Positions 31,334 through 49,796 of a stretch of 64,000 nt of DNA are shown here, piece after piece. A program made the translations under genes and the position numbers. Each line of letters starts with the position of its first letter. The first letter of the stretch is position 1. The stretch is from a virus. Where the stretch lies: positions 1-64,000 of the IMG/VR virus record IMGVR_UViG_3300043436_004687, one strand, 5' to 3'. The notes beneath the pieces are model-generated. The model worked only from the letters and a program-made list of their open reading frames with translations, made no database searches and was not told the origin of the DNA.

Positions 31334-32020
31334 TTACCACCCATAAAAAACCATTTGATTTCTTTTCCAATCAAATGTTTTATAGATATTTACTAATTCA
31401 AATACAGCATATTCATATTTCCAACTTGTAGTTACTTCAGTTCCACCATTTAAAGAATAAGGTCTTTTATTTGGGAAACATGAACTATTCCATTCATCAT
31501 TCATGGATTTTACATGTTTAAACATCTTTATTATTTGTACATTTTGATCTTCTGTTAAATCACTGAAATTCCCAATTGTTTCATATTCATAATCTTCTTT
31601 AGAATATCTATGTTTTGTATCTTTAAATAATGTACTTGTATCTCTATCATCTTCATCAAAAAATGGTTCTAACATATTTGAATAAATTTTTCTAACCTTA
31701 TTAGAATAATATTCAATCAAATATTCTAAATATTCTTTGGTAACAATTTCAAAATCATATTCCTCATAATATTCTTTCATAACACATTTCTTAAAAAATG
31801 GTTTATGAGATTTTTTTGGTGGTTCAAAATCAGTATATTTACCAAAATTATATAAGCTTTCAACTATCTTATAATTACTAATTTTATCATGATTATCATC
31901 AAAATCTTCATGATCCTCATCAACTAAATTAAAATATTCTTTAAATTGTTTCACATCTAAAGATTTAATTTTATTATATTCTCTTTTCGTAATAAAACCA
32001 ATATAAGTTCTATAACCCAT
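31334..32020 (-). CDS. Hypothetical phage protein (228 aa)
   Basis: Begins MGYRTYIGFITKREYNKIKS and is strongly acidic in the middle (DEDHEDFDDNHD). The C-terminal part GGTEVTTSWKYEYAVFELVNIYKTFDW looks like a conserved globular end. Overlaps prs by 1 nt. Not recognised. Confidence 0.7.
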   Translation of the reverse strand: MGYRTYIGFITKREYNKIKSLDVKQFKEYFNLVDEDHEDFDDNHDKISNYKIVESLYNFGKYTDFEPPKKSHKPFFKKCVMKEYYEEYDFEIVTKEYLEYLIEYYSNKVRKIYSNMLEPFFDEDDRDTSTLFKDTKHRYSKEDYEYETIGNFSDLTEDQNVQIIKMFKHVKSMNDEWNSSCFPNKRPYSLNGGTEVTTSWKYEYAVFELVNIYKTFDWKRNQMVFYGW

Positions 32021-33006
32021 TATTTTAAATTATTTAAATTTTCAATACTTAAACCTTTATCAATTGCTATTATACCCTTTGATATTTGTTTGTAAAGTGA
32101 TATTATTTTAATTTTATTACCTTCTATTACATTAAGACTATTCGAACAAAGAAAAGCTTCTAATTTAGAATTATTGATAGTATCATATGCGTTACCCGAT
32201 AAGACACCATGAGTTACAATTGCTTTAACTGATTTTGCTTTACCTTCATCAAGCAATACACCAGCACCCTTGCAAATAGTACCACAAGTATCAGCTAAGT
32301 CATCAATTATGATAACATCTTTACCTTCAACATCACCAATTATAATCATCTTGTCAACAACATTAGCTTGACTTCGAGTCTTATCCATGAATACTATTGG
32401 TAATTCTATATTATATTTTAATTTAATTAAATCTCTATAATGTTTCACTCTTTTTCCACCACCCGCATCAGGAGCTGCTAACACAAGATTATTTAAACCA
32501 CATTCTTTAATGTATGATTCAAATAAATATTTACCATGCATATGAATAACTGGAATTTGAAAAAACCCTTCTATTTGTTCTGCATGTAAATCAAATGTTA
32601 TTACAGATGTTGCACCTAAAAATTCTAATTTAGAAGCAATTACTTTGGCTGAAATAGAACCACGAGGATAATCCTTTTTATCACTTCTAGCATAAGCAAA
32701 ATAAGTAATTATTGGTATTATTTCTTTAGCACCAGCTCTACGTGAAGCATCAATAGCAAATTCCAACTCAAGAATTTTATCTGAATTAGACAAATTAGTT
32801 AATAAAAATACTTTTTTACCCCTAACTGATGTTTCAAGATCTACTGAAATTTCACCATCTGAAAATTTTTGATAGTTAGTTGTTCCAAAATTATTATGTA
32901 AATTATAAGAATGGAATTCATTTAAATGTTTTTTCACTTCATTATAAAGAATTTCAGTACCACTTAGACCAAAAATTATGCTATTATTTTTCATGTTGTT
33001 AAGCAT
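32020..33006 (-). CDS. prs: Ribose-phosphate pyrophosphokinase (PRPP synthetase)-like
   Basis: 328 residues. Family motifs: FSDGEISVDLETSVRG, FAYARSDKK, VITFDLHAEQIEGFF (about 132-146), LAAPDAGGGKR, the flexible loop DKTRSQAN, and the PRPP-binding loop VIIIDDLADTCGT. Normal Prs has DTGGT; here a Gly is Cys. It makes PRPP from ribose-5-phosphate and ATP, needed by the NAMPT at 41424. Some phage Prs-like enzymes instead pyrophosphorylate ADP-ribose for NAD+ rebuilding; the sequence alone does not decide. Followed by a 1-nt overlap. Confidence 0.85.
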   Translation of the reverse strand: MLNNMKNNSIIFGLSGTEILYNEVKKHLNEFHSYNLHNNFGTTNYQKFSDGEISVDLETSVRGKKVFLLTNLSNSDKILELEFAIDASRRAGAKEIIPIITYFAYARSDKKDYPRGSISAKVIASKLEFLGATSVITFDLHAEQIEGFFQIPVIHMHGKYLFESYIKECGLNNLVLAAPDAGGGKRVKHYRDLIKLKYNIELPIVFMDKTRSQANVVDKMIIIGDVEGKDVIIIDDLADTCGTICKGAGVLLDEGKAKSVKAIVTHGVLSGNAYDTINNSKLEAFLCSNSLNVIEGNKIKIISLYKQISKGIIAIDKGLSIENLNNLK

Positions 33007-34020: not shown

Positions 34021-34743
34021 TTATAATTCTTTAATTAATTCTAAAAATTTTTTCATCCCTTCAGTAGCAGTTTTTCTAATATAAATTGGGTTTAAATCAT
34101 CTAAATCCATTGCTGGATTAGGATCTATATAATAGACTTTAGTATCTTTTTTTATTTTTCTTAATAAATCATGCGTATAACCTATTGGTAGGCTAGTGCC
34201 GATAATTAATAATACATCACAATCTTTTAAAGCATTTATAGAAGAATTAACATTAAAGGGATATTCACCAAATAAAACTGTATGGGGTCTTAAACTCACA
34301 CCATTTTCATTTTTATCACCCCAATTTAAATCACCCAAACAATCATATAATTTAACACTTTTATCTGAAATGTCAGCAAAAACATTTAATTCTTTATTTT
34401 CCCTAGATTTATATATTTCCCCATGTAAATGTAGTATATTTTTACTACCAGCCAATTCACTTAAATTGTCAACATTTTGAGTTATAATAACAACATCATG
34501 CTCTTTTTCCAATTCTACTAAAGCAAAGTGTGCTGAATTTGGCTTTTTATCCTTACATTTTTCCCTAAGCATATTATGGAAGTCCATAACTAACTGAGGA
34601 TTTTTTTTCCAACCTGAATGTGTTGCCACTTTATCAACCTCATAATTATACCAAAACCCATCTTTTATATCCCTAAAAGTGTGAATTTCACTTTCAGCAC
34701 TTAACCCAGCGCCACAAAATACAACAATTTTACTTTTCACCAT
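34021..34743 (-). CDS. Sir2-family NAD+-dependent deacylase/ADP-ribosyl enzyme
   Basis: 240 residues from the ATG at 34743 (MVKSKIVVFCGAGLSAESEI). The in-frame ATG at 34761 lies in the promoter region. Motifs: GAGLSAESEIHTFRD (NAD-binding), ITQNVDNLSELAGS, catalytic HLHGEIY, then PHTVLFGE and LIIGTSLPIGYTHDLL. The usual Zn Cys pairs are absent, as in short-chain variants. It removes acyl groups from lysine using NAD+, or hydrolyses NAD+. Single Sir2 proteins are also NAD-depleting defence effectors, but no partner gene is adjacent. Confidence 0.88.
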   Translation of the reverse strand: MVKSKIVVFCGAGLSAESEIHTFRDIKDGFWYNYEVDKVATHSGWKKNPQLVMDFHNMLREKCKDKKPNSAHFALVELEKEHDVVIITQNVDNLSELAGSKNILHLHGEIYKSRENKELNVFADISDKSVKLYDCLGDLNWGDKNENGVSLRPHTVLFGEYPFNVNSSINALKDCDVLLIIGTSLPIGYTHDLLRKIKKDTKVYYIDPNPAMDLDDLNPIYIRKTATEGMKKFLELIKEL

Positions 34744-34758
34744 AATTTTAATTTTCCA

Positions 34759-34766
34759 CAAATATA
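34759..34766 (-). promoter_or_regulatory. -7 promoter box of sir2
   Basis: TATATTTG on the minus strand, 16 nt before the chosen sir2 ATG. Confidence 0.6.
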
Positions 34767-34837: not shown

Positions 34838-34858
34838 AGTATATAAAATAATACACTT

Positions 34859-36119: not shown

Positions 36120-36156
36120 AAATGCAACTATTTTCATACTTTATAATTTTATAATG

Positions 36157-36164
36157 CAAATATA
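36157..36164 (-). promoter_or_regulatory. -7 promoter box facing the plus-strand cassette
   Basis: TATATTTG on the minus strand, between the terminator (36171-36205) and the inserted cassette. It points at sir2, more than 1.4 kb away. It may be a promoter stranded from its gene by the insertion, or give antisense RNA to the endonuclease. Confidence 0.4.
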
Positions 36165-36170
36165 GAATAA

Positions 36171-36205
36171 AAAAAATAACTTAACAAATAAATGTTAAGT
36201 TATTT
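36171..36205 (-). terminator. Intrinsic terminator
   Basis: A 13-bp stem AAATAACTTAACA/TGTTAAGTTATTT followed on the minus strand by a T run. It overlaps the last codons of the gene at 36195-36638. Confidence 0.7.
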
Positions 36206-36638
36206 CATAAATTTCTTTCAATAAGCCTAAAGTTGGTTCCCAATCCTCCTCAGCATCAAAACCAGCTTTATCATCAAATAAAACTGAAATGTATGGTTTA
36301 TCATCATAACAACCATAACCATTTTTATCTGTTTGTACTTCTGGATTTTTATTTACATATTGAAAATAAATATCATTTTTCCTAAAAAAATTAAGATATA
36401 AATCTATTTCTTTTGGGTGAGAACAAGTATATAAAATAAGTTTAATTCTAGGATTTAACTTACTCATATATTGTAGAGTTTCTTTTGCAAATGGATAAAA
36501 CTCAGTTGGGATTGATTTTGAGTCGTAATTTGATTTTACTATTGTTGAATGGATATCAACAAAATAATAACTTCTATCAAAATTTCTTTCTAAACACTTT
36601 TTTTGATCTTCTTTAATCGCTTTTAATATTCCTACCAT
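36195..36638 (-). CDS. HAD-like phosphatase
   Basis: 147 residues. YYFVDIHSTIVKSNY (motif I, with DxHxT in place of DxDxT), a central ILYTCSHPKE (motif II Thr) and SVLFDDKAGFDAEEDW (acidic motif IV). It resembles phage proteins of the HAD fold. The second acid of motif I is replaced by His, as in 5'-nucleotidase-like variants, so activity may differ. Ends at a terminator. Confidence 0.65.
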   Translation of the reverse strand: MVGILKAIKEDQKKCLERNFDRSYYFVDIHSTIVKSNYDSKSIPTEFYPFAKETLQYMSKLNPRIKLILYTCSHPKEIDLYLNFFRKNDIYFQYVNKNPEVQTDKNGYGCYDDKPYISVLFDDKAGFDAEEDWEPTLGLLKEIYEIT

Positions 36639-36723
36639 ATTTTTTTATTTTGAAATTTCTATAATATGTGAAATTGCACATTGATTTTCATTGTAAATAA
36701 TGAATTCATTATTTTTCAAATCA

Positions 36724-37617
36724 TTAAAAAGTCATTATATCGACCAATTCCAAATCTTTATATTTAGCATAAGAGTGTAAAGTACTAGGAACGTTAAACG
36801 AATTAGCCGCTTCAAAATCTAAACTAACTATTGTGTATTCATTATCATCAAATATTTTACACTCTTTTGGTTTAAAAGTTAGTGGATGTGAACAAACTTT
36901 TTCTGATTCTGAACAAATTTTATTAATAATTAACTTAATCTCTATTTCTGTCAACCCATGTTTTGTGTTGTAAAATTTTACAGGATTACCACCATAATCA
37001 ACTACATCTTTTAAACAATCAAACTTTATTTTCGTATCTTTAATAAAAACACCACCCTTTAGTTCTTTATACTTCTTATATAATTTTATGGCATCAAATT
37101 TTAGCGAAATTAAATCTTCTTTTTTACCACCATATTCAACAAATATAGATTTAGCATTTCTTAATTTATCAACAAAAACTTCATCATTTGATAGATATGT
37201 GTTGAAATAGGTAACATAATTATATTCGACATGTTTCTCACCCTCAAATACATATTTAACATCATCTATAACTAAATTAAATGGTTTAGCGGTCTTCTCA
37301 TATTCTTTTGATACTAAACCAATTTGAAGACAACTCATTCTCCATCCTTGTGTTGGTATTTCCAACCTTGTGTATTCACCATTCTTTTCAAAAAGTCGGA
37401 CAAGAGTATCAGGTTTTACATCATAAAACAAATTCATACTAACCTTTTCTCTATTATCACTATTTAAACATAAGTTAACAGCAATAATTGTGTCAGTATT
37501 TTCCTTTAAGTCAACATACGTATAAAAATTTTTATCTTTATATAAATCACTTAAATTTGTTTTCTTAGTACATGATATAACCAACATCGACAACACTAAA
37601 ATTAATAATTTTTTCAT
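36724..37617 (-). CDS. Lipoprotein (297 aa)
   Basis: Signal with lipobox: MKKLLILVLSMLVISC, Cys at residue 16. The mature part is beta/alpha with CSESEKVCSHPLTFKPKEC near the end; a similar C-SHPLTF/NPETF-x-PKE Cys segment appears in the lipoprotein at 53381, so the two may be related. Expected at the host outer membrane. Function unknown; in a three-gene exported cluster. Confidence 0.7.
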   Translation of the reverse strand: MKKLLILVLSMLVISCTKKTNLSDLYKDKNFYTYVDLKENTDTIIAVNLCLNSDNREKVSMNLFYDVKPDTLVRLFEKNGEYTRLEIPTQGWRMSCLQIGLVSKEYEKTAKPFNLVIDDVKYVFEGEKHVEYNYVTYFNTYLSNDEVFVDKLRNAKSIFVEYGGKKEDLISLKFDAIKLYKKYKELKGGVFIKDTKIKFDCLKDVVDYGGNPVKFYNTKHGLTEIEIKLIINKICSESEKVCSHPLTFKPKECKIFDDNEYTIVSLDFEAANSFNVPSTLHSYAKYKDLELVDIMTF

Positions 37618-37622
37618 TTTAT

Positions 37623-37970
37623 TTAATTATTTAATTTATTAAAACTTTTATTTGAAACATCATAGTATAACCATAACACACCAACCCCAATAACTGTTGT
37701 ACCATCAACATTAGAGTATTGTCTTTTAGCTATTGAAAATAAATAATAATTATCAGTAGTAACTGCAATATCAATTATTCGGTCAACACTAGTTTCTAAA
37801 ATGTTTTGAAAATACGTTGGTAAGTCGACACCAGATGTTGCGTTAGCTGAATAAGATTTTGCGTGTTCTTTAGCAGTTTTTTCAAATTTTTCTTGATTAG
37901 GATTTCCAACCAAGAAAAGCACTATCAATACACCTAAAGAAGTTAATATTTTTTTGTGAATAGTTTTCAT
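37623..37970 (-). CDS. DUF4359-like exported protein
   Basis: 115 residues with an N-terminal hydrophobic signal/anchor (ILTSLGVLIVLFLVGNP). The mature part has YFQNILETSVDRIIDIAVTTDNYYLFSI and a VIGVGVLWLYYD end, fitting DUF4359. Between two lipoprotein genes. Function unknown. Confidence 0.6.
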   Translation of the reverse strand: MKTIHKKILTSLGVLIVLFLVGNPNQEKFEKTAKEHAKSYSANATSGVDLPTYFQNILETSVDRIIDIAVTTDNYYLFSIAKRQYSNVDGTTVIGVGVLWLYYDVSNKSFNKLNN

Positions 37971-37971
37971 T

Positions 37972-38571
37972 TTATTTAATTTTATATTTATTTTTTTCTA
38001 ATTGAACCCAATCAACTTTTGTTGATATTGATTTATTATATGCTGACATAAACTCAGCAGCATCTTTTTGTATTTTTAACTCTTTTGGTTTTTCACCAAC
38101 TACTTGTAACGTTACTTTCTTAGCGTTTTTCATTTCATTAATTATATAGGCATCAAAACTACCACCTATATGTTTCATATAAGCTTTAGTATATTTTGGA
38201 AAAGAAGCAGATTTATTTCCAGTTATTGCATTTGAAGCATCTTTAAACCCAGAACCACTTCCATCATGATATTTTTCATAATATAGTTCTTTACCATCAA
38301 TGGTAAGTCTATAGTCTTTACCTAAAGGTACATTAAATTCCAACTTAGAAAACCAAGTATTATCAATCATTTTAGAAATATTGTATGAAAACACATAATC
38401 TTTTGTTACTAACTCATATTCGATTTCAGTAGAATATTCAAATAATGTATCATAAGTAATTTCTAAATATTCTTTTTCAACTATTTTTTCTTTTTTAGTA
38501 TTGACATCATTTTTACACGAGTTTAAGGTTAAGATAAAAATTAATGTTAACCCAATTAAATAATTTTTCAT
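37972..38571 (-). CDS. Lipoprotein (199 aa)
   Basis: I choose the ATG at 38571 (MKNYLIGLTLIFILTLNSC), a typical lipoprotein signal with Cys at about residue 19; the upstream in-frame ATG is at the edge of the promoter. The mature domain is mostly beta. First gene of the exported cluster behind the box at 38596-38603. Unknown function. Confidence 0.7.
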   Translation of the reverse strand: MKNYLIGLTLIFILTLNSCKNDVNTKKEKIVEKEYLEITYDTLFEYSTEIEYELVTKDYVFSYNISKMIDNTWFSKLEFNVPLGKDYRLTIDGKELYYEKYHDGSGSGFKDASNAITGNKSASFPKYTKAYMKHIGGSFDAYIINEMKNAKKVTLQVVGEKPKELKIQKDAAEFMSAYNKSISTKVDWVQLEKNKYKIK

Positions 38572-38595
38572 TTTTAATGTTTTTAAATTAGAGTA

Positions 38596-38603
38596 CAAAG
38601 ATA
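38596..38603 (-). promoter_or_regulatory. -7 promoter box
   Basis: TATCTTTG on the minus strand, 25 nt before the lipoprotein ATG at 38571. Confidence 0.6.
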
Positions 38604-38659
38604 CGCATTTATTTCAGTTCTCACAAACTTTTTGATATTTATTTTCAAATTATTTTACA

Positions 38660-38669
38660 TATATTTATA
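38660..38669 (+). promoter_or_regulatory. TATATTTATA box
   Basis: TATATTTATA, 13 nt before the RHH gene at 38682 on the plus strand. Confidence 0.45.
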
Positions 38670-38681
38670 ATAAAAGATATT

Positions 38682-38813
38682 ATGAGAAAAGAACAAAAAA
38701 TAATTAACGTTGTTATAACACCAGAAATGAAACAAAAATTAGAGGAAAGTGGATATAATAAATCAAAATTAGTTAACTCACTACTCGAAAAATATTTTAA
38801 AAAAAACTCTTAA
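38682..38813 (+). CDS. Ribbon-helix-helix protein (43 aa)
   Basis: MRKEQKIINVVITPEMKQKLEESG then NKSKLVNSLLEKYF: strand plus two helices of a minimal RHH DNA-binding protein. It is the first of two tandem RHH genes upstream of the GIY-YIG gene on the plus strand. Confidence 0.55.
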   Translation: MRKEQKIINVVITPEMKQKLEESGYNKSKLVNSLLEKYFKKNS

Positions 38814-38840
38814 ATTTAAGTCTTTTTTACTTTTTCTAGA

Positions 38841-38848
38841 TATTTATA
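38841..38848 (+). promoter_or_regulatory. TATTTATA box
   Basis: GATATTTATA upstream of the RHH gene at 38878. The box thus repeats before each of the two tandem RHH genes. Confidence 0.4.
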
Positions 38849-38877
38849 GATATAACAATTACTTAAATTCAAATATC

Positions 38878-39030
38878 ATGAGAAGAAAAACAAAAACAAT
38901 AGAAGAGAAAAAAAGTAAAATATCTTTTTCAATCACAAAAGACATGCACGATAAACTATCTGAGTCAAATATGAATAAATCACAATTAATCAATTGGTTA
39001 TTAGAACAGCATTTTAATTCTTTGAAATAA
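38878..39030 (+). CDS. Ribbon-helix-helix protein (50 aa)
   Basis: Basic start (MRRKTKTIEEKKSK), strand ISFSITKDM, then helices NKSQLINWLLEQHF. Its TAA overlaps the GIY-YIG ATG (TAATG), so the two are translationally coupled. A self-regulating partner of the endonuclease is likely. Confidence 0.58.
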   Translation: MRRKTKTIEEKKSKISFSITKDMHDKLSESNMNKSQLINWLLEQHFNSLK

Positions 39031-39932
39031 TGGATAATTTTACAATTTATAGTATTAGTAGTGAGGGTGAAATTTTTTATATTGGTAGGACTTGTGATTT
39101 AAAACGTAGAAAAAACGAACACATGTCTGAAAATAAAGGAAACACTTATAAGTCAAATAAAATAAAAAAGTTAAGAAGAGAAAATAAAGAAATTAATTTT
39201 AATATTTTACATGAAAATCTTACATATGAACAATCAATTGAATTAGAAATAAAGGAAATTAAAGAACATAAAGAAAAAGGTTATATACTAGCTAATTTAA
39301 CTGATGGTGGAGAAGGAACTTTTGGTCATAAACCTATATTTACTGATGAATGGAAAAATAATCTTAAAATGGCTAGAAAACTCTTATTTAATGATGGTTA
39401 TGAAGTTGCCAATAAAGGTAAAACATTAGAGGAATTAATTGGAAAAGAAAAAGCTAAAGAACAGAAAGAACGTATTGGTAAAAAGATTAGTGATGGAATA
39501 AAATCTGGATTAATAAAACATAATAAAGGAAAAAAGTTAGAAGAATTAGTAGGTATTGATAGAGCAACTGAACTAAAAGAAGAAATTAGGGTTAGAGCTA
39601 AAAATACCTTTACTGGGATAAAACAAAATAATAGCCACATTAATAAACGTATTAGTAAACAAATTGAAACTAAATCTAATTGGTCAATTGAAAAACGTGA
39701 AGAAATTAGACAGGCTAATAAATTAAATGGTGCTAAAGCACATAAAAATTATAACTTTATTGTTGATGGGTTTAATCATTATGGTACTTGGAAAAGTTTA
39801 TCTCCAGCACTAAGAGAAGAACAAGGAATAATAGTTAGTCCCGATTCATTAAGTCAATTTTATAGAGGAAAAATTAAAACCTTAAAATGTGGAATTAAAA
39901 CAATTAAAATTCAACCTCTATTAAATGACTAA
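39030..39932 (+). CDS. GIY-YIG homing endonuclease
   Basis: 300 residues. GIY-YIG core at the N-terminus: TIYSISSEGEIFYIGRTCDLKRRKNEH (in two blocks, about 4-31), then ILANLTDGGEGTFGHK. The middle holds two repeats around GKTLEELIGKEKAKEQKERI and GKKLEELVGIDRATELKEEI, likely DNA-binding modules. The 3' end overlaps the 3' end of the PARP gene on the other strand by 29 nt. Confidence 0.85.
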   Translation: MDNFTIYSISSEGEIFYIGRTCDLKRRKNEHMSENKGNTYKSNKIKKLRRENKEINFNILHENLTYEQSIELEIKEIKEHKEKGYILANLTDGGEGTFGHKPIFTDEWKNNLKMARKLLFNDGYEVANKGKTLEELIGKEKAKEQKERIGKKISDGIKSGLIKHNKGKKLEELVGIDRATELKEEIRVRAKNTFTGIKQNNSHINKRISKQIETKSNWSIEKREEIRQANKLNGAKAHKNYNFIVDGFNHYGTWKSLSPALREEQGIIVSPDSLSQFYRGKIKTLKCGIKTIKIQPLLND

Positions 39933-41175
39933 TAGTCGTTTGTTGTGATTTATATATAATATACTCATCTTTTCGTAAATCAATACCTTTATGAGCATGA
40001 ACACTATCATAACCACCAGCTTCAACTTCTTTACTAATTTTATAACATGACGAATCATGTTTATATTTATTTAATTGTTTACCAACATGAACATCAAATA
40101 ATCCCAAAAATACTTTATTATTTCTAGAACCACCTGCCCACCTACCACCATCAGTATAACCTAACGATTTATCTGAATCTGATGCAAAATAAATCCCATC
40201 ATCCCACATACTACCAGTATGAATTGCCCCAGAAGGTCTGATTAATAACCCAGTTTGTAAGATATTGAACCAATTTTGGTTTCTAGAACCATGCCAATAA
40301 AGTCTTCTTTTCTTAACTTTAGCTAATTCAAAATTATTATCAAATATTCTTTGTGTTTTCTTATTAATCACTTTGAATACTTTTCTAATTTGATGAGCAT
40401 TATGACCCATAAGTTTTTTAATTAAATCCAATTTTTCATTGTCAGTTTCAATCTCAACTTTTAAACCTAATTGATCTAATATGGTTAAATCTTGTTTTAT
40501 ATCTTCACTATTATTTGAATCTTCTTTTTGTTTTTTCAATAATTGAACTTGACCCGCCATTACATCTAGGGTTTCTTGCTCGCTATTAATAAATTCTTTA
40601 GCTTTTTCTAAATCTTGTTTATTATTAATAGGTTTTAATAAATAATCCTTTACATCTTTCATGTTTCTAGGGATTATTGTATATAATTTCAATAACAATT
40701 CATTTAAAACTTTAACATCTGATTTTAAATTTAAAGTACTAGAAATTTGATTTAATATTTCTTGAGCAGAATTAATTTGTAATTCAGTTACCGAACTTTG
40801 AGTTACCTTATAATTCTTTTGGATAGATTTATTAGCATAGGCCATTAAATCATCAATAAGTTGTTTAACTACTTTATCTTCAATTTCTTTTATGGTTGAA
40901 CTAGAAGCGTTGTCTATTTCAGTTTCAATGAACATTTCGGTAACATCGGTATAACCCTTAGTTTTAGAAATTTTTTGTTTATAAACAGAATTCCATTTTG
41001 AAATATCTTTATATTCTGTTGCTAAATTATTACCAACTCTACCATATTGACACTTAATTTTACCATCACTTTGTTCCTCCATAATGTAAACCTTATTGGA
41101 ATTTGACGTTAAACCATTGTCGATTGATACATGAATTAATTTAGCATAACGTAAACCATTCTCCTTTATAATCAT
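39904..41175 (-). CDS. Poly(ADP-ribose) polymerase-like protein (WGR + PARP)
   Basis: 423 residues. The WGR domain covers about residues 10-80: NKVYIMEEQSDGKIKCQYGRVG, W61, KTKGYTD. A PARP regulatory helical region spans about 90-260, and the catalytic domain about 270-423: YWHGSRNQNW (His295), DGIYFASDSDKSLGYT (Tyr329), and DLRKDEYIIYKSQQ (Glu404). The H-Y-E triad is complete, so polymer synthesis from NAD+ is possible, not only mono-ADP-ribosylation. WGR domains sense DNA or RNA ends. It consumes the NAD+ that the next genes can make. Confidence 0.9.
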   Translation of the reverse strand: MIIKENGLRYAKLIHVSIDNGLTSNSNKVYIMEEQSDGKIKCQYGRVGNNLATEYKDISKWNSVYKQKISKTKGYTDVTEMFIETEIDNASSSTIKEIEDKVVKQLIDDLMAYANKSIQKNYKVTQSSVTELQINSAQEILNQISSTLNLKSDVKVLNELLLKLYTIIPRNMKDVKDYLLKPINNKQDLEKAKEFINSEQETLDVMAGQVQLLKKQKEDSNNSEDIKQDLTILDQLGLKVEIETDNEKLDLIKKLMGHNAHQIRKVFKVINKKTQRIFDNNFELAKVKKRRLYWHGSRNQNWFNILQTGLLIRPSGAIHTGSMWDDGIYFASDSDKSLGYTDGGRWAGGSRNNKVFLGLFDVHVGKQLNKYKHDSSCYKISKEVEAGGYDSVHAHKGIDLRKDEYIIYKSQQTTISHLIEVEF

Positions 41176-41187
41176 TTTATTTTTTAA

Positions 41188-41424
41188 TTAATTTATGGTG
41201 AACTCAGTTATTTTTGTTTTTATCTCTGGTGATACAAGTTCACCTTTAATTATCATTATATCCCCTCCCCAATAATTAGTATCACTATCTTTTGGCAATT
41301 CATTCATGTAATTAGGAAATGAACCATAATGCTCATCATTAATTCTCTCTAATAACACTTCTTTAGTAACACACTCAACATGAGTATCACCATCACTATT
41401 TGTAATTATGAAATATTTGTCCAT
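41188..41424 (-). CDS. Hypothetical protein (78 aa)
   Basis: Starts MDKYFIITNSDGDTHVECVTKEVLLERIN, a compact alpha/beta protein. It overlaps the NAMPT stop region by 1 nt and is probably co-translated with it. Not recognised. Confidence 0.65.
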   Translation of the reverse strand: MDKYFIITNSDGDTHVECVTKEVLLERINDEHYGSFPNYMNELPKDSDTNYWGGDIMIIKGELVSPEIKTKITEFTIN

Positions 41425-42653
41425 TATTTATTTGGGGCGTATTTATGTAACAATTCTAATTTAACTGACATTATCTCATCACTAGCTGGATAATTATTAT
41501 TAGTTGAAGTTTCTAATGATAATGGCATGTATTTCATTTGATTGGTTTTTAATGCTTTAATATCTAAAAAATTATCATCTTGTGCAGAACCAAATGGTTC
41601 CCATATATTAGTACCATCAAAATAGGTTTCTAACATATCCTCACCATCTTCATGAGCAAACAAAATTGTTTTTTTATTTGACAACGCTTCTGATGTGCGC
41701 ACAACTTTAAATGGACCAGGTAAAGTTCCTTTACCAAGAGTTTCACTAAATTTAACAACTGGAATATCTTCTTCACCAACACTTGCTAATGCATATTTAG
41801 CAGAAAGATTATCTCGTTTTAGATTGTTTCTAAGTCCTCCACCTTGACCAAATAATCCCCAAGTATAAAAAGCATAGCCCTTGTCTAAAAGAGCATCCAT
41901 TTCATCAAGAATATCTTCAAATGATTTACCATCACCATCTAAAAAATGAAATAAAGTACCACATTTCCAAACACCAGTTTTAGTTGTAATCTCAGTAAAC
42001 AATCCATTTTCAACACTTAAATCACAAATTTCAATAATTTGATCTTTAGTTGTATAACCATCTTTTGAAGAATCTGGTCTAGCAACAACTACTTTACCAT
42101 TATTTTCATTTTTACTTCTTAACGCTAATGGTAAAAGATAATTTCTCACAGCATTTTTAGCATCATAACAATCATCCACCATACTTGCTATCTCATCATT
42201 TCCACAACTATTATAAATTGCTTCATAACAATCTTTTTCATTTTCATATGATTGTACATTTCTATGTGCCAAAGCATTTACACTAGAGAAAATACCCACC
42301 GATTCATCTGAATTTTTCCAAGCTTGATAAGCACCTGAAAACGTATCAGTCCCACCAAATGTATATAAATGAACCATCCCTAATTCTTCAGATTCTTGAC
42401 TACATATACCAGCTCTATCTCCAAAATCAGTAATCATTATACTTGCCCAGAAACTTAACATTTCTTCTGACATATCAGGATCTACACGTAAAATTCTTTT
42501 TTTAATTTCTTGTAAAAAATGCTCATCTTGTGTAACTCTTTCTGTAGTGGACCAAACTTGAAGTAATTTTGATTCAAACCAAGCACCTAATACGCCAAAA
42601 CCTTTTACATCAGATGTAATTTCAATAACTGGCTCATTTGGATAACAAATTGA
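41424..42653 (-). CDS. nadV: Nicotinamide phosphoribosyltransferase, exon 2
   Basis: 409 codons that continue the protein from exon 1 (43622-44026). Reading starts at TCA 42653 (SICYPNEPVIEI). NAMPT/NadV motifs: GDRAGICSQES, TFGGTDT, VVVARPDSS (PRPP/phosphate site), LDGDGKSFEDILDEM, FGQGGGLRNNLKRD, and KVVRTSEAL. It makes NMN from nicotinamide and PRPP; some phage members instead use a pyrophosphorylated ADP-ribose. The open frame in the middle (ATG at 42473) is internal to the protein. Joined length about 544 residues. Confidence 0.88.
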   Translation of the reverse strand, partial: SICYPNEPVIEITSDVKGFGVLGAWFESKLLQVWSTTERVTQDEHFLQEIKKRILRVDPDMSEEMLSFWASIMITDFGDRAGICSQESEELGMVHLYTFGGTDTFSGAYQAWKNSDESVGIFSSVNALAHRNVQSYENEKDCYEAIYNSCGNDEIASMVDDCYDAKNAVRNYLLPLALRSKNENNGKVVVARPDSSKDGYTTKDQIIEICDLSVENGLFTEITTKTGVWKCGTLFHFLDGDGKSFEDILDEMDALLDKGYAFYTWGLFGQGGGLRNNLKRDNLSAKYALASVGEEDIPVVKFSETLGKGTLPGPFKVVRTSEALSNKKTILFAHEDGEDMLETYFDGTNIWEPFGSAQDDNFLDIKALKTNQMKYMPLSLETSTNNNYPASDEIMSVKLELLHKYAPNK

Positions 42654-43621
42654 CGTTTATATTCCACTCAACTCGCAACTGTTGAATGCGTTCTCTAAGG
42701 AACTGCTTTATCTCTCAATAAAGACTAGACTATATCAAAACCCTATTTACTAGGGTCAAAACCATTTCCAGAACCATTAGCTTGTTCTGTACTCCCTTGC
42801 GGGATAGTCGTTGAACGTTTTTCTAAAATATTTTTATAAATATTATCAATTAAATTTAAAAAATCATCATGGTCTAGTGTCATTTTAGCGGTATTACATA
42901 GTCCACAACATGGGACAACATTTTCATTCGTATAACCAATAGAATTTATTAATCTATCAATACCGTTTCTTTTAAACTCTAAGCCACTTTTATTTACTAA
43001 TTCATCACTAGGATTATTTCTTGGTTCAGAACCACAATAATAACAATTAGAAAAAATTAATTCTCTGAATTTTTCTTCAGATATTAAAAATTCATATTTT
43101 CTGTTTTTTGCAGCTCTTTTATAATTTCTGAAAACTCTTTCAATAATAGTTGCGTTTTCTGGTCTTATTCTTTTTTCAGCATTTTTTTTTAAAACGCATT
43201 TTGGACACATAGTACGTTTACCGTTATTCAAATGATTAGTTCTGACAGTTGCGGTGTTTCCACAATCACAATCACAAATCCAACAATTTTCTTTATAGTT
43301 TTCATATTCCCTAGAAACAAATTCTTTAGCAACTAAGTTACCAAATCTTTTATTTTTTAAATCAATGAACAATGGTGATTCAACACCTTTTTTATAATTT
43401 CCCATATTAAAGCATTTATTAATAAATATCTAAAACTTTTAAAAAAGCTTTAATTAGGTAAAAATATTTTAGAAACTTCGCTGCTGATTTCCCAATCCTT
43501 TATCTTTTCAAACATTCACGCTTGATATTACTATCTACGTTGTAGTGTTAAAGGCTCTAAGGGGTTTCCAGCAATTAGATTTCTTTAGACATACTATTAC
43601 TAGTATGAATGGCTACTAATA
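42654..43621 (-). ncRNA. Group I intron in the NAMPT gene
   Basis: About 968 nt. The 5' part has a CATACTA-GTAA-TAGTATG hairpin, GCTGGAAACCCCTTAGAGCC and AAATCAGCAGCGAAG, characteristic of group I cores. The 3' part has GATATAGTCTAGTC. Exon GAAGGT can pair with intron GCCATT with a U-G wobble at the 5' splice site, and the intron ends in G. Both exons stay in frame and rejoin a continuous NAMPT sequence. The boundaries are my reading. It hosts an HNH gene. Confidence 0.87.
42743..43405 (-). CDS. HNH endonuclease inside the group I intron
   Basis: 220 residues. Two zinc-like clusters CDCDCGN and CPKCVLKK (about 48-75), then an HNH core with CYYCGSEP, GIDRLINSIGYTNENVVPCCGLCN (two blocks). Ends by reading into the intron 3' core (TTIPQGSTEQANGSGNG). 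It would cut NAMPT genes that lack the intron and drive intron homing. A TATTTATT box lies just upstream (43421-43428). Confidence 0.85.
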   Translation of the reverse strand: MGNYKKGVESPLFIDLKNKRFGNLVAKEFVSREYENYKENCWICDCDCGNTATVRTNHLNNGKRTMCPKCVLKKNAEKRIRPENATIIERVFRNYKRAAKNRKYEFLISEEKFRELIFSNCYYCGSEPRNNPSDELVNKSGLEFKRNGIDRLINSIGYTNENVVPCCGLCNTAKMTLDHDDFLNLIDNIYKNILEKRSTTIPQGSTEQANGSGNGFDPSK

Positions 43622-44026
43622 ACCTTCTCTAAAACCCCTAACTTTAATTGGTGGTCTACCATTGAATTCATCCACAACTCGTCTCCAAATTTCTTCTGGG
43701 AATTCATATTCAGCAAAACCTTTAGTAGTAACTTTAGCATGAGCTAAAAAACGTTTAGTTTCATCAATTTCTTCATGTGTAATAGGTTCATAGAATAATC
43801 TTTCTAAAATTCTTTGTAACCCTATGAAAACTATTCTATTATCTTCTTTAGAATAAATAGAATTATTTATCTCATGTAATCTACGTCTAAATGTAATATA
43901 ATAAACTGATTTTTCTTTAGCTTTTAAACTTTCAAATTTATTAGACCCTATTGTATAAGCATCACCTAACAATAAACGAGGTGTTTTATATATTTTACGT
44001 TTTGGTAGTTTTACTATCTTTTCCAT
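43622..44026 (-). CDS. nadV: Nicotinamide phosphoribosyltransferase, exon 1
   Basis: 135 codons from ATG 44026. It matches the NAMPT N-terminus: LLLGDAYTIGSNKFE, FIGLQRILERLF (cf. FYGLQYIL), VVDEFNGRPPIKVRGFREG (cf. YDGHLPIEI-x-AVPEG). The frame reads two residues beyond and stops in the intron at 43616. The protein resumes at 42653. It lies 2 nt downstream of the P-loop ATPase and in one operon with the NMNAT/Nudix gene. Confidence 0.87.
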
Positions 44027-44028
44027 GA

Positions 44029-44670
44029 TTATTTATATTTTATGTTATTATTTTTAAAATCAAAATAAAAATCAAATTGATTTATATTAGCGTATTTATT
44101 TTTAATTAGGTTGATAGTCCTATTAGGTTTATTTAACCAAAAACAAAAAAAGTATTTTGCTTTTTCTAAAAATGTAAATTTATCTTTTATAGTTAAATCA
44201 ATAAAAATGTCAGCTTTTTGCATTTTATTTAACGAAGTACCCACTAATTTAGTACCATTTAAATCTTTAACATGTTGATTGCTAATTAAAACGATAAATT
44301 TTTGTTTTAATTTCTCAACAAATTGAAAACTTTCTTTTTTTATTACATGTGAATCATCAAAAATAATTACATCAAAACCACTTTTTATAATTTCATCATA
44401 TAATTTATTATCTAAATTGTCATATTTTGTAATAGTTAAATAAGGTAATTTACCATAAAACAAAGGATCTAACTTCACCCTAGTTTTATCTCTAATAGTA
44501 TTTACAGAACATTCATTTGTTAAAAATAAAACCCTTTTACCTTCATTATGAAATTCAGCAGAAATAAAGCATAATAAATTGGTCTTACCAACACCGCATT
44601 TAGAATTTAAAACTGCTAATAATTTTGAACTAAAAGTTAACCCTAATTTATCAATTAATTTTTGTTTCAT
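44029..44670 (-). CDS. P-loop ATPase (RecA/DnaB-like fold)
   Basis: 213 residues. Walker A NSKCGVGKTNLLCF (about 22-35), Walker B VIIFDDSH (about 99-106), and a sensor-like FIVLISNQH. Size and order fit a RecA-fold ATPase that moves or loads on nucleic acid, or an AAA-like switch. No helicase extension is present. Between the NMNAT/Nudix and NAMPT genes, but a metabolic link is not evident. Confidence 0.65.
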   Translation of the reverse strand: MKQKLIDKLGLTFSSKLLAVLNSKCGVGKTNLLCFISAEFHNEGKRVLFLTNECSVNTIRDKTRVKLDPLFYGKLPYLTITKYDNLDNKLYDEIIKSGFDVIIFDDSHVIKKESFQFVEKLKQKFIVLISNQHVKDLNGTKLVGTSLNKMQKADIFIDLTIKDKFTFLEKAKYFFCFWLNKPNRTINLIKNKYANINQFDFYFDFKNNNIKYK

Positions 44671-44671
44671 A

Positions 44672-45607
44672 TTAATTAGTTTTGGTGGTTAGAAATTTTA
44701 TCAATTTTTTCATCATATCTCTATGTTCTTCAACGATATTTAATACAATAAACCCATCATTAAATTTTTCAATATCAAAATACTTCAACTCTTCAATATC
44801 ATCACTTGCTATTGGTCTACCCATTTGATCCCAATCATAAGTTAAAAACAAGGTAGTTAAGATACCACTTTCTTGACCTCTATATCTCCAATCTTCAACT
44901 TTTTGACTCAACACATAGTGCATAGTTAAAGCACTCAATTTACTTTCCTCATATAATTCTCTACGAGCAGCCATTTCTAAGCTTTCATCACTTCTATCAA
45001 CAAACCCACCAATAAATCTAAATTGTTCTTCATTAGGTTTTCTAGCTAGTAATATTTTATTACCACTAACCACAACCACATCAACAGTTGGGTAAGTAAC
45101 TGCTCTATTTTTATATGTTTGAAAAATGACACCATTCCTAAAATCTTTAGAATTAATTTCATTCTTGGCAATTTCATTTCTTAAATCAGATGCGTTAAAA
45201 TATTCATTTTCACTTTCTAACTCAATGGTTTTAAAAATTCCATTATAACTAGGGATAAAAGAATCTCTACAACCATATAAAACAACACTTTTATTATCGC
45301 TAACACTTAATATTGATTTATCTAAATCATTAGACCAGATAGAATCAAATCTTTGATCTAAAAGTGGTAAAATAATGATATTAGGGTATAATTCTTGAAT
45401 CATATTCTTCCTCATTGAAAATGATAAAGGATTCTTTTTAGTGTTTTGTATTTTAGCAACGCCTATAAATAAAATTACTTTTTTATGCTTTGAGGAAACA
45501 TAATCTATTAACCCTAAATGACCTTCATGTAATTCATTTATTTGAAATCTTCCAATGATAACACCAGTTTCAAATAGATTAGAATCTAAATTAGTTTTAT
45601 TCTTCAT
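44672..45607 (-). CDS. Bifunctional NMN adenylyltransferase/Nudix hydrolase
   Basis: 311 residues. The N-terminal nucleotidyltransferase has GRFQINELHEGH (19-30), the GRFQ-P-x-HxGH signature, and joins NMN and ATP to NAD+. The C-terminal Nudix box GGFVDRSDESLEMAARRELYEES (two blocks, about 200-222) is complete and would hydrolyse ADP-ribose or similar nucleotides. The layout matches NatV of phage KVP40 and bacterial NadM-Nudix fusions. With NAMPT it forms a two-step nicotinamide-to-NAD+ route. Confidence 0.92.
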   Translation of the reverse strand: MKNKTNLDSNLFETGVIIGRFQINELHEGHLGLIDYVSSKHKKVILFIGVAKIQNTKKNPLSFSMRKNMIQELYPNIIILPLLDQRFDSIWSNDLDKSILSVSDNKSVVLYGCRDSFIPSYNGIFKTIELESENEYFNASDLRNEIAKNEINSKDFRNGVIFQTYKNRAVTYPTVDVVVVSGNKILLARKPNEEQFRFIGGFVDRSDESLEMAARRELYEESKLSALTMHYVLSQKVEDWRYRGQESGILTTLFLTYDWDQMGRPIASDDIEELKYFDIEKFNDGFIVLNIVEEHRDMMKKLIKFLTTKTN

Positions 45608-45612
45608 ATTTT

Positions 45613-46011
45613 TTAATTTAAAATTTCTTTTACAATATTACTCAATGATTTACCATCATACAAACCATCATAATTTGTTTTAAAATGGGCCATTATTTTA
45701 CCCATATCTTTTGGTGAATTCCAACCTTCAGTATCTTTAACTAAATTAATAGCTATCTTCATTTCATTATCTGACATTTGTTTTGGAATATACTTTTCTA
45801 AAACTTTAATTTCAAATTCATTATTGGTAGTTTCTACAACACCCTCAATTAATTTTTTAACTAATTTTACAATATCAGCATCAGTCAATTCCACCTTACC
45901 TTTATTTCTTTCGATTTCACCCTTTAACACTTTAAGAATATCTCTAGTAATATAATCTTTTGCAATAATTGCTTTTGTAATATCGTAATTTATTAATTCT
46001 GTTAAGTTCAT
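45613..46011 (-). CDS. YqeY/GatB-domain protein
   Basis: 132 residues. LINYDITKAIIAKDYITRDILKVLKGEI, VLEKYIPKQMSDNEMKIAI and KDMGKIMAHFKTNYDG are the YqeY family's blocks. The fold is shared with the tRNA-binding tail of GatB. It may act on aminoacyl-tRNA, which would suit a phage with many tRNA genes. First gene after the box at 46037-46044. Confidence 0.8.
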   Translation of the reverse strand: MNLTELINYDITKAIIAKDYITRDILKVLKGEIERNKGKVELTDADIVKLVKKLIEGVVETTNNEFEIKVLEKYIPKQMSDNEMKIAINLVKDTEGWNSPKDMGKIMAHFKTNYDGLYDGKSLSNIVKEILN

Positions 46012-46036
46012 ATGTTTATTATTTTTAATTATTGAG

Positions 46037-46044
46037 CAAATTTA
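46037..46044 (-). promoter_or_regulatory. -7 promoter box
   Basis: TAAATTTG on the minus strand, 26 nt before the yqeY-like ATG at 46011. It probably drives yqeY, NMNAT/Nudix, ATPase and NAMPT. Confidence 0.5.
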
Positions 46045-46068
46045 TTAAAAATATTTCAAATATCCTAA

Positions 46069-46389
46069 TTATAATTTAAAATAATAGTGAAAATTTTTAT
46101 TTTCTTCTGTATCAAAGGCTAAATAAGCCCATTGTATTTTCTTTTCTTGAATTAACTTAGAAAGTTTATTATATTCCTCAAGGGATTCATCTTCCGCAAT
46201 TCTAATATAAGTTTTATCTAATAAATTTTTTGTTTTTGCTGGTCCTATTCTAGATGAAACTGGTAATAATTTAACAGAAGATTTAATTCGTTTAATAACA
46301 TTCTTTTTAATTATCTTATTGCTAATTTTAGATGTGGTAACAGAAGCAGTTTTACTTGGAGCTTTATTTAAACCTATTTTCTTTTTCAC
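46069..46389 (-). CDS. Hypothetical basic protein (106 aa)
   Basis: The first 60 residues are Lys/Ser/Thr-rich and probably disordered (APSKTASVTTSKISNKIIKK). The last 45 form an alpha/beta piece. It overlaps the upstream gene by 26 nt. Not recognised. Confidence 0.65.
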   Translation of the reverse strand: MKKKIGLNKAPSKTASVTTSKISNKIIKKNVIKRIKSSVKLLPVSSRIGPAKTKNLLDKTYIRIAEDESLEEYNKLSKLIQEKKIQWAYLAFDTEENKNFHYYFKL

Positions 46390-46654
46390 TAATTTCCAAT
46401 TTAATTAAATCTTCTCTTAATCTATTTTTTAAACTTTCTTCCCCATCATCACCACCAAAAAATTTATATAATCTATTGGAATAAATTTCAGCTATTTTTA
46501 ATATTTTAGAAGCTTCGTTTAAAATTTCAATTGTTTCACTAGAATAAATTTCATTAAATTCTTTATTCTGAATACCCTCAATTTCTTTTCCTTGATTATC
46601 TATATTTTCTTGAATATTTTCATAAAGCTCTTTAATAATATAACTCTTATTCAT
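46364..46654 (-). CDS. Hypothetical helical protein (96 aa)
   Basis: Acidic and helical (KELYENIQENIDNQGKEIEG). Its start overlaps the end of the DHFR gene by 8 nt. Possibly a small regulator; no evidence for a function. Confidence 0.65.
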   Translation of the reverse strand: MNKSYIIKELYENIQENIDNQGKEIEGIQNKEFNEIYSSETIEILNEASKILKIAEIYSNRLYKFFGGDDGEESLKNRLREDLIKLEISEKENRFK

Positions 46655-47165
46655 TTTTTAATTTTAAATAATCGTTAAACCTTTCTTTTGAAGCATATTC
46701 TTCAAACCTATAATCTAAATTATCTTCATTATAAGGTCCATCAAACTTCAATAAAACCCAATTTTCATTTATCAAACCATCAACAAAAATATCACCATCA
46801 ACTTCATTAAGAATGTTGGTTAAATATAGTTTATCAGCTAAATTAAATGATTGTTTATATATTTCCGCACCCCCAATAATGAATAATTCCTCACCAACTT
46901 TATCAAATTCTTTAATTGCTTCAATTAAATTATTTCTAATCTCACAACCCTCTGCTTTAAATTCAGTATTTCTTGTTATAACAACATTTATTCTGTTGGG
47001 TAAAGGTCTGTATGGCAATGAATCCCAAGTATTTCGCCCCATAATGATTGTTTTACCTGAAGTTACTTTCTTAAAGTTTTTTAAATCGGTTGGTAAGTTC
47101 CAAGGTAAATCATTTTTTTTACCAATAACACCATTTTTAGACATCGCTAATATAATACTTATCAT
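46647..47165 (-). CDS. folA: Dihydrofolate reductase
   Basis: 172 residues. MISIILAMSKNGVIGKKNDLPW, DLKNFKKVTSGKTIIMGRNTW, LPNRINVVITRN, FIIGGAEIYKQSF are the DHFR signature blocks. It regenerates tetrahydrofolate used by ThyA (4274-5602). The genes are far apart, unlike the usual thyA-folA pair. It is followed 2 nt later by a 2H phosphoesterase gene. Confidence 0.95.
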   Translation of the reverse strand: MISIILAMSKNGVIGKKNDLPWNLPTDLKNFKKVTSGKTIIMGRNTWDSLPYRPLPNRINVVITRNTEFKAEGCEIRNNLIEAIKEFDKVGEELFIIGGAEIYKQSFNLADKLYLTNILNEVDGDIFVDGLINENWVLLKFDGPYNEDNLDYRFEEYASKERFNDYLKLKNE

Positions 47166-47167
47166 CC

Positions 47168-47725
47168 TTATTTGTTTTTAAAATTATAATATTTTTCAGA
47201 ACCATCTGCTTTCGAATAAATTATCCTAGTAGCAGTTAATTTTATAGGATTATCTAAGTTTCTAATATAATCTTTACCTTTACCTCCCTTTACAAAAGCT
47301 ATGGTTGCATGGGCCTCATACTTAGGAAAATCACTCTTAAAAGGCAATTCTTTTAGTTTTTTATTCATATCCTTTAATGATTTATCGTTGATGTTGAATT
47401 TAACTACATCAATATCATCATTTTCAAATATATCTATTTTATCAAAGGTAATTTCTGGAGCTACAAATTCACAAACAATTTTTTTAAGTTCACTATCTTT
47501 AATACTAGGTAATAACCCATAAAGTAAAGTAATGTGAAAATTAGTTTCCCTACCTGATTTCCCATCAATATCAGAAACATCTTCATCCTTAATAGCATCT
47601 TGTAATTCTTTCATTTTATCTTTGGGTAAGTTAAAATCAAGCATCACACAACCATATTTATACTTTACCCCAGCTATTTCATTAAGCCTCATTCTTAACG
47701 ATTCTCTAATCAATTCCTTTCTCAT
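47168..47725 (-). CDS. 2H phosphoesterase (LigT/2'-5' RNA ligase superfamily)
   Basis: 185 residues. Two HxT motifs: NFHITLLYG (about 62-70) and EAHATIAFV (about 142-150), the catalytic pair of 2H phosphoesterases. They open cyclic phosphates or cut 2'-5' linkages in RNA or cyclic oligonucleotides. T4 Acb1, an anti-CBASS enzyme, has the same fold, so a role against cyclic-nucleotide signalling is possible. It overlaps the PPP phosphatase gene by 20 nt. Confidence 0.78.
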   Translation of the reverse strand: MRKELIRESLRMRLNEIAGVKYKYGCVMLDFNLPKDKMKELQDAIKDEDVSDIDGKSGRETNFHITLLYGLLPSIKDSELKKIVCEFVAPEITFDKIDIFENDDIDVVKFNINDKSLKDMNKKLKELPFKSDFPKYEAHATIAFVKGGKGKDYIRNLDNPIKLTATRIIYSKADGSEKYYNFKNK

Positions 47726-48488
47726 TCTTACAATATATTAAATGTTCGTCATTATTATATAAATCAGTTAACAAATCACTTTGCCAATATTCTTTGGTGT
47801 CTACATCCATTATGGTTAACCTACCGTTAGAACCACCACCAGTATCTAAATTCCAAAGATTATAAAAATTAAGTGGTTGGTCTGTTGCAAACATAAGTGT
47901 GGGTGTATGACCTATAAAAATTTCTTTATAATTATTCAATCTTTTAGGTCTATACCTAATTAAATCCTCTATATTATCTTTATGCTGATGACTAACCGTA
48001 TAGGCTGCATCTAAAAGACTTCTATCCCAATATAATGTAGATAATTGGAACTCATCTCTGACTCCTTTAGGTGCCTTAAAACCACCATGTACGAATAATC
48101 TATTTTTATTATCAATGTAGTAATAATCTAACTGATCAATAAATTTTCTATGTTCATTTAAATCATATGTTGTTTTCCTATATGAATTTAATGTGGAATG
48201 CCCACCATTATTTAACCAATTAAAATTTACTACACCAAATACTAAGTATTCCCTTAACCATGCATCATGATTACCAAGTATAAAGATGGGTTTAAAATCA
48301 CATTCATTTTTTAACTTTATTAAATAATCTATAGTTTCAACAGCTGTTGCAAAACCATCTACATAATCCCCCAAGAAAATTAATTGATCTTCTTTTTTAT
48401 TAAAATTACATCTTTCCAAAACTTGTACTAATGCTAAATAACCATTATGTATATCTCCTATTACAAGCGTTCTTTTAATTTTAATCAT
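47706..48488 (-). CDS. PPP-family metallophosphatase (lambda-PP-like)
   Basis: 260 residues. GDIHNGYLALVQVLE (GDxH), LGDYVDGFATAVE (GDxVDxG variant), FILGNHDAWLRE (GNHD), and FIGHTPT with WNLDTGGGSNGRL near the end. These form the dinuclear metal site of calcineurin-like serine/threonine phosphatases, which phages use on proteins or RNA ends. A GIY-YIG gene lies directly upstream, and a truncated copy of this gene's start lies beyond it. Confidence 0.88.
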   Translation of the reverse strand: MIKIKRTLVIGDIHNGYLALVQVLERCNFNKKEDQLIFLGDYVDGFATAVETIDYLIKLKNECDFKPIFILGNHDAWLREYLVFGVVNFNWLNNGGHSTLNSYRKTTYDLNEHRKFIDQLDYYYIDNKNRLFVHGGFKAPKGVRDEFQLSTLYWDRSLLDAAYTVSHQHKDNIEDLIRYRPKRLNNYKEIFIGHTPTLMFATDQPLNFYNLWNLDTGGGSNGRLTIMDVDTKEYWQSDLLTDLYNNDEHLIYCKNEKGID

Positions 48489-49169
48489 TTATTTAAATTT
48501 AAATTTATAACCATGTGTATGTTTTCTTTCTTCTTTACAAACCCTAGAAATCATTTTATAACTAATACCAGTTTCATTTGATGCTATTCTACCCGAAGAA
48601 AATTCTTTAATGAAATTATCATTTAAATCTAATTGAATAACTGGTTTTTCACCATTACAACTAATTAATTTATAAGGAAATTTTTCAAATTTTTCAAATA
48701 GCCATAAAAAACCACCAGCCGAATTAATTCCATTTTCATTACTTTTTTTACATGCTCTTAAAATATTACTATCTGGAATTTTAAATTCAATACCTGCATG
48801 ATTAGAATTTTCAAATGTTTTAATAAACTCACCATTTAAAGAATATTGATGGACTAACTTACCAACTTTTACTAAACCTAAACAATTATCCCAAGAATTT
48901 GTTAAATTATAACGTTTCATTAATTTTCTCATAAAAGTTTTTTCAATTTTTATTGATTCATCAATAGTACATACTTCATGATAAATTACATCTAATATTG
49001 GGTCACATTTTAAACTTCTAATCCAATTACATTTATGACTTTTACAATCACCTTTAGATTCTTTAATATGACATCTTAATCTATTTTTTGGGTTTAAAGT
49101 TCTACCAAAATATTTAATTTCATTTGTGTTTGGATTGCGTAATACATAAAAGTAACATTCTCGTTTCAT
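48489..49169 (-). CDS. GIY-YIG homing endonuclease
   Basis: 226 residues. N-terminal core FYVLRNPNTNEIKYFGRTLNPKNR (two blocks, about 7-30), a YFG variant of YIG, then EKTFMRKLMKRYNLTN. The C-terminal two thirds carry NUMOD1-like repeats (LVHQYSLNGEFIKTFENSNHA, VIQLDLNDNFIKEFSSGRIA). It ends exactly where the phosphatase gene starts. See findings for the duplicated start. Confidence 0.85.
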   Translation of the reverse strand: MKRECYFYVLRNPNTNEIKYFGRTLNPKNRLRCHIKESKGDCKSHKCNWIRSLKCDPILDVIYHEVCTIDESIKIEKTFMRKLMKRYNLTNSWDNCLGLVKVGKLVHQYSLNGEFIKTFENSNHAGIEFKIPDSNILRACKKSNENGINSAGGFLWLFEKFEKFPYKLISCNGEKPVIQLDLNDNFIKEFSSGRIASNETGISYKMISRVCKEERKHTHGYKFKFK

Positions 49170-49214
49170 CTTTTTATTTTAAGATAAACATGAAATATTA
49201 TTTTTAAATATTAT

Positions 49215-49262
49215 TTAATCAATATAATCACCTATAACAAGCGTTCTATTTGGGTTTAACAT
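49215..49262 (-). pseudogene. Truncated duplicate of the phosphatase start
   Basis: A 15-codon ORF MLNPNRTLVIGDYID followed by a stop. NRTLVIGD mirrors residues 5-12 (KRTLVIGD) of the phosphatase at 48488. It begins right after the kptA stop and before the GIY-YIG gene, so it marks the original 5' end displaced by the insertion. Confidence 0.7.
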
Positions 49263-49796
49263 TTATTCTTTAATTTTAATATATTTTGATGGTACTTCTT
49301 CAGTTAACCAAACATTATTTTTAGACTTATAAAATTTATAACCATCTTTAAGCATTGATTTAGAATCAACTATCAATATAATTGGGTTACCTCTTCTGGA
49401 ACCTACATTGGTAGCAGTATTCAGATTATCACTTAAATGAACATGATTTCTATTCATTGGTTTTAACCCCTCTTTAAGAATTGGTTTTATGAATTTTTCA
49501 ACTGTTCCATGATACAATGTGATTGGTGGGATAGAAATTTTTAAATCAAGATCAACATTTATAGAATGGCCTTGATTTGCTCTAATTTTAGATTTATCTT
49601 CATTAAATGTAAATCGTTGTTTATCATTAGAAAAAACAATTTCATCTAATTCTTTTTTGGTAATATGATAATCTTTTAATGAACATTTTTCCAATAATTC
49701 ATCAACGCCAACCCAACCATTTTTATCTAATTTGATATTTATTGTTTCTGGTTTATGTCTTAAGATAAGACTAAGAAATTTACTATTATTTTTCAT
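49263..49796 (-). CDS. kptA: RNA 2'-phosphotransferase (Tpt1/KptA family)
   Basis: 177 residues. SKFLSLILRHKPETI, DKNGWVGVDELL, KIRANQGHS, LYHGT, GLKPMNRNHVHLS, VGSRRGNPIILIVDS and NVWLTEEVP are the family's blocks in order. It transfers an RNA 2'-phosphate to NAD+, producing ADP-ribose-1'',2''-cyclic phosphate; family members can also ADP-ribosylate RNA or DNA ends. The neighbours are a 2H phosphoesterase and a phosphatase, which together look like RNA-repair enzymes. Confidence 0.93.
   Translation of the reverse strand: MKNNSKFLSLILRHKPETINIKLDKNGWVGVDELLEKCSLKDYHITKKELDEIVFSNDKQRFTFNEDKSKIRANQGHSINVDLDLKISIPPITLYHGTVEKFIKPILKEGLKPMNRNHVHLSDNLNTATNVGSRRGNPIILIVDSKSMLKDGYKFYKSKNNVWLTEEVPSKYIKIKE

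Follow-up and report, generated by a model that had tools for sequence, protein, structure and literature searches.

A group I intron predicted to interrupt the NAMPT gene of a phage, with nearly the same intron at the same site in a distant NAMPT family

The NAMPT gene of a very large phage known from IMG/VR record IMGVR_UViG_3300043436_004687 is very probably interrupted by a mobile group I intron of IA type, predicted to splice and to home. The analyzed stretch, called the window here, covers the first 64,000 nucleotides of this 339,635-base record. The reading is based on the continuity of the gene, the limits of the intron, a conserved and covarying core, the presence of the same intron in a distantly related NAMPT family, and signs of selection in the HNH gene it carries, from which we infer splicing, cleavage, homing, and the direction of transfer. 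An HNH-bearing group I intron had been predicted in this gene, and half-models, the covarying core, and uninterrupted homologues support it; more informative are the homologous introns of distantly related NAMPT genes, which that original prediction did not include.

Two separate minus-strand frames, previously proposed to form a continuous NAMPT, make a single protein of 544 amino acids when connected in frame (REG|SICYP), as both their coordinates and uninterrupted homologues across the junction confirm. The joined protein is 77% identical over 540 residues to the uninterrupted NAMPT of L003 (634-kb phage record LR745206.1), which reads KEGSVLYPNEP where the window has REG|SICYPNEP. Uninterrupted genes also occur at six more IMG/VR loci, L012-L017, of which three are near-identical to one another; their NAMPTs show 76-80% identity to that of the window and align with it end to end. 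The Pfam NAMPT_N match falls in exon 1 and the PHROGs NAMPT match in exon 2, and the joined protein matches PDB NAMPT structures (E down to 4e-26), with both N-terminal and catalytic domains present and the TDT, catalytic His, RPDS, and GDG motifs all kept. These motifs, together with nearby NMNAT and PRPP synthetase genes, suggest that the enzyme uses nicotinamide and PRPP. An assignment to Namat instead of NAMPT was rejected, the positions equivalent to the clamp residues F392/Y396 reading G and N, not aromatic residues (alignment by eye, after PMC12774641). Past the splice site, the exon-1 frame continues to a TAG, the second intron codon in that frame (136 amino acids, ending at 43616, while the exon itself stops at 43622), so that exon 1 alone would lack the catalytic residues.

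The intron limits were set by the reading frame, the homologues, and family features, with U as the last exon base and G as the last intron base. The predicted spliced junction reads ...GAAGGT|TCAATTTGT in DNA and GAAGGU|UCAAUU in RNA. The expected terminal G is found at the 3' end (...AAACG|TCA), and the three core strings quoted earlier can be read on the minus strand near 43573, 43490, and 42736. The proposed P1-like pairing with a U-G at the 5' splice site also holds: exon GAAGGU|UA is predicted to pair with UAGCC-A-UUC at -4.0 kcal/mol, 9 of 200 shuffles being as good. The same U-G occurs in the related introns of L009 and L010 and, by inspection, L122, all described below. A P10 pairing is not claimed, as our own inspection gave one or two pairs only, without conservation. 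The coordinates of all features are collected in Table 1.

Table 1. Positions of the exons, intron parts, and neighboring genes in the window
Feature	Position	Strand	Remarks
NAMPT exon 1	43622..44026	minus	135 codons, up to ...REG with U of GGU as final base; NAMPT_N 33.7 bits
NAMPT exon 2	41424..42653	minus	SICYP... to stop, 409 codons; phrog_448 E 6e-29
Group I intron, IA type	42654..43621	minus	968 nt, terminal G
P2 hairpin	43590..43607	minus	7 bp, GUAA loop
P3 5' strand, P4, P5, P5a, P6 5' strand	43478..43587	minus	model R2 match, 114 bits
P6a 5' arm UUUCUAAAAUAUUUUU	43460..43475	minus	pairs with 42835..42820
P6a 3' arm AAAAAUAUUUUAGAAA	42820..42835	minus	pairs with 43475..43460
P7, P7.1, P7.2, P3 3' strand, P8, P7', P9	42706..42814	minus	model R1 match, 60.6 bits, E 5.7e-13
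Putative HNH endonuclease gene, in P6a loop	42743..43405	minus	220 aa; 3' end overlaps P6a, P6, P7, P7.1, P7.2, P3, P8; stop in P8 3' strand
PARP-like protein	39904..41175	minus	Pfam PARP 78 bits, phrog_23333; closely follows NAMPT, same orientation
NMNAT-like + Nudix protein	44672..45607	minus	next NAD-salvage step; two genes upstream of NAMPT
PRPP synthetase	32020..33006	minus	makes NAMPT co-substrate
Sir2	34761..34021	minus	
Tpt1/KptA RNA 2'-phosphotransferase	49796..49263	minus	

A DNA search recovered pieces of the intron core from about 250 phage records, and 89 stretches of viral contigs contain an exact 25-base string of the core. The alignment of 21 sequences (18 ORF-less relatives and three NAMPT introns without their HNH stretch) gave a structure with P2, P3, P4, P5, P5a, P6, P6a, P7, P7.1, P7.2, P8, and P9. 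Standard pairs fill 86% of its cells (vs. 68% when shuffled and at most 51% when slid), changes on both sides are seen in 44 of 69 pairs, and the covariation score is 0.425, compared with 0.139 shuffled and at most 0.141 slid; none of 500 shuffles reached any of the pairing, double-change, or covariation values. Because the window sequence served to draw the structure, the slid control is biased in the structure's favor, the half-models being the independent test. The P3 pseudoknot helix, whose two strands flank most of the HNH gene, is paired in 21/21 sequences, with covariation in five of its five pairs, and RNAalifold recovers it unaided. P7 is invariant, the P3/P7 pseudoknot core from P3 to P9 is present, and the two P6a arms of the window are perfectly complementary across 16 bases. 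P7.1 and P7.2, located between P7 and P3, are paired in 97% and 95% of cells, with double changes, and assign the intron to subgroup IA, IA1 and IA2 not being separated.

Half-models built solely from the introns of other phages (R2 for the 5' half and R1 for the 3' half) were run over the window and the NAMPT loci. Both match the intron (E 1e-27 and 6e-13), with one further window match only, at E 0.2. R2 finds one copy only in the whole record, where no second copy of the same intron was found; a 38-nt match at 207013 corresponds to the HNH gene end. The covariance-model check attached to the original prediction came out in two ways, the half-models matching while plain Rfam stays below its cut-off: cmscan of 40000-46000 returned no Intron_gpI match at E<=1, and a genome search with the same model returned two sub-threshold pieces (27.9 and 16.5 bits, for a gathering score of 50). 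Since ORF-less members of the same intron family pass (53-96 bits with Intron_gpI) and the half-models, which do not span the ORF, match strongly, the low score is most likely caused by the ~640-nt HNH insertion in P6a. The exact P1-P2 pattern was not found in bacterial and archaeal genomes, and a promoter and terminator scan gave no clear excess over shuffles.

The HNH ORF reported inside the intron is indeed present, and the PHROGs matches of its product range from E 9e-21 to 4e-8 (endonuclease VII, E 9e-21; HNH endonuclease, E 2e-13). With no Pfam or NCBIfam match and a marginal PDB match (PacI, E 0.1), it is a putative nuclease by PHROGs and may be catalytically competent. Its last ~30 codons double as P6a', P6', P7, P7.1, P7.2, P3', and P8; the final 25 residues of the protein do not differ among the three NAMPT introns. 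Over the full length, identity between the window and L009/L010 is 63-65% at the amino acid level, with dN/dS of about 0.41-0.44 (0.22 for L009 vs. L010), and the frame is open in all three copies; these values point to a gene under selection, constrained and not neutral. Folding revealed no significant stem hiding the HNH start region (z -0.58).

Two loci from other metagenomes, L009 and L010, have the same intron inserted at the homologous EG|S junction, although their NAMPT is only 25% identical to that of the window. The ribozyme parts of these introns are mostly 96-98% identical to those of the window (lowest 90%, overall ~96%), and only one NAMPT type is present in each of six records checked. 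Because nearly the same intron lies at the same codon junction of distantly related NAMPT genes, it has evidently jumped between phages, apparently across anciently diverged NAMPT genes. The intron is absent at this site from 7/7 close relatives of the window NAMPT and from 15/15 further close relatives of the L009 NAMPT. The flank of these 15 intron-less alleles is GG[A/G/C]|AC in 14 and GGA|AAT in L122, compared with GGT|TC in the two intron-bearing alleles. The latter flank could have been co-converted from a donor with GGT|TC, for which the window's family is an example, or selected as competent for splicing. Since the more distant L127 is natively GGT|TC and intron-less, the direction of transfer is a suggestion only. 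In L122 (1580-2498), a second NAMPT site ~34 codons downstream (TGGT|AC, within the QVWY codons) is occupied by a related group I intron whose HNH gene is different; NAMPT in large phages therefore has at least two intron sites and, on this sequence evidence, appears to be an intron target. Separately, L010 contains a second C-terminal NAMPT copy (4865-6534, 76% identity), behind a reverse-strand endonuclease-like ORF and downstream of the complete intron-bearing NAMPT, and several copies of same-family introns lie close together in one contig in L025 and in L086.

The intron could also be a fixed passenger of past homing, which still splices but is no longer mobile and whose HNH gene is decaying. 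Such a decay would agree with the 65% identity of the HNH proteins of the window and L009, against 96% for the ribozyme, and with the missing Pfam nuclease match, but the patchy presence of the intron in both families, the open HNH frame in all three copies, and dN/dS below 1 make it unlikely. The stop that ends the exon-1 frame might instead mark a NAMPT pseudogene split by an insertion, whose pieces would be unspliced remnants; this is highly improbable, as the junction is exactly in frame, the exons are intact and 76-80% identical to uninterrupted homologues, the catalytic motifs are kept, and the ribozyme is complete and covarying. That NAMPT and an unrelated intron were brought together by an assembly artefact, a concern since the window comes from a metagenomic virus record, is hardly credible given the same arrangement, with splice-competent flanks, in two independent contigs of other metagenomes (L009 and L010).

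NAMPT lies in a minus-strand cluster of NAD-linked genes (32020-49796), encoding PRPP synthetase, Sir2, the PARP-like protein, NAMPT, the NMNAT-Nudix protein, and Tpt1/KptA, and this neighborhood suggests a region of NAD salvage and NAD use. As an NAD-recovery gene, NAMPT is thought to counter NAD-depleting host defences, and by analogy with known phage NAD-reconstitution systems, the region may have an anti-defence use. The window also contains a 2H phosphoesterase-like protein (47168-47725, minus), whose match to the Pfam anti-CBASS Acb1 family lies exactly at the cut-off (27 bits), and three free-standing GIY-YIG endonuclease genes at 39030-39932 (plus), 30537-31220 (minus), and 48489-49169 (minus).

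For a mobile intron that splices and homes, the following sequence of events is proposed. The transcribed RNA would fold into the ribozyme, an external guanosine would cleave after GAAGGU at the U-G of P1, and the 5' exon would then attack after the terminal G, yielding a ligated mRNA for the intact 544-aa NAMPT. The HNH protein, translated from unspliced RNA or from the excised intron, would cut NAMPT alleles that lack the intron, close to the conserved Glu-Gly codons, as the intron distribution suggests, and the intron would thereby be copied into the cut alleles, along with a few bases of flanking exon. It is conceivable, albeit as a tentative extension, that the intron is an active homing element specialized on the NAMPT Glu-Gly codons, crossing lineages of 25% identity and possibly hindering co-infecting phages by cutting their NAD-recovery gene.

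These results add NAMPT to the genes targeted by phage introns; gene callers will give NAMPT as two unrelated frames, so that its role in NAD salvage stays hidden. Shared by two anciently separated NAMPT families at one codon junction, the intron offers a clean natural example of probable homing at a conserved site across deeply diverged genes, with a possible flank-conversion footprint. It also suggests that intron endonucleases and competition over an anti-defence gene are linked, which can be tested.

Among known systems, the IA introns of PBS1/AR9-type Bacillus, Staphylococcus, and other large phages share about 70-86% core identity over P3-P6 or P7-P9 and the same family layout with P7.1/P7.2. 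Where annotated, the matches listed lie in protease, RNA polymerase, topoisomerase, and ribonucleotide reductase genes, none being annotated as NAMPT. Nuclease-bearing group I introns in phage genes, like that of NAMPT, are described in the Jug huge phages (PMC12363816), where splicing is read-supported for 37/76, and in Bastillevirinae (PMC11878797); a term search for nicotin- genes in the texts of these two papers found no mention. In the literature searched, no previous description of a NAMPT gene with an intron was found. Bacillus phage Belinda has a NAMPT, but its split gene is the DNA polymerase. In the large phage PhiPA3 (PMC11620839), a role of an intron endonuclease in competition between co-infecting phages was shown; that intron sits in another host gene. 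Compared with the phage NAMPT/NMNAT NAD-reconstitution systems and Namat (PMC12774641), the window shares the NAMPT fold, the catalytic motifs, and a nearby NMNAT-Nudix gene, while its NAMPT differs from the usual phage enzyme in belonging to a divergent 544-aa family (about 25% identity) and in being interrupted by an intron. The kind of element is thus well known, NAMPT as its host gene appears unreported in the literature searched, and the noteworthy part is the apparent transfer of the intron across two NAMPT families.
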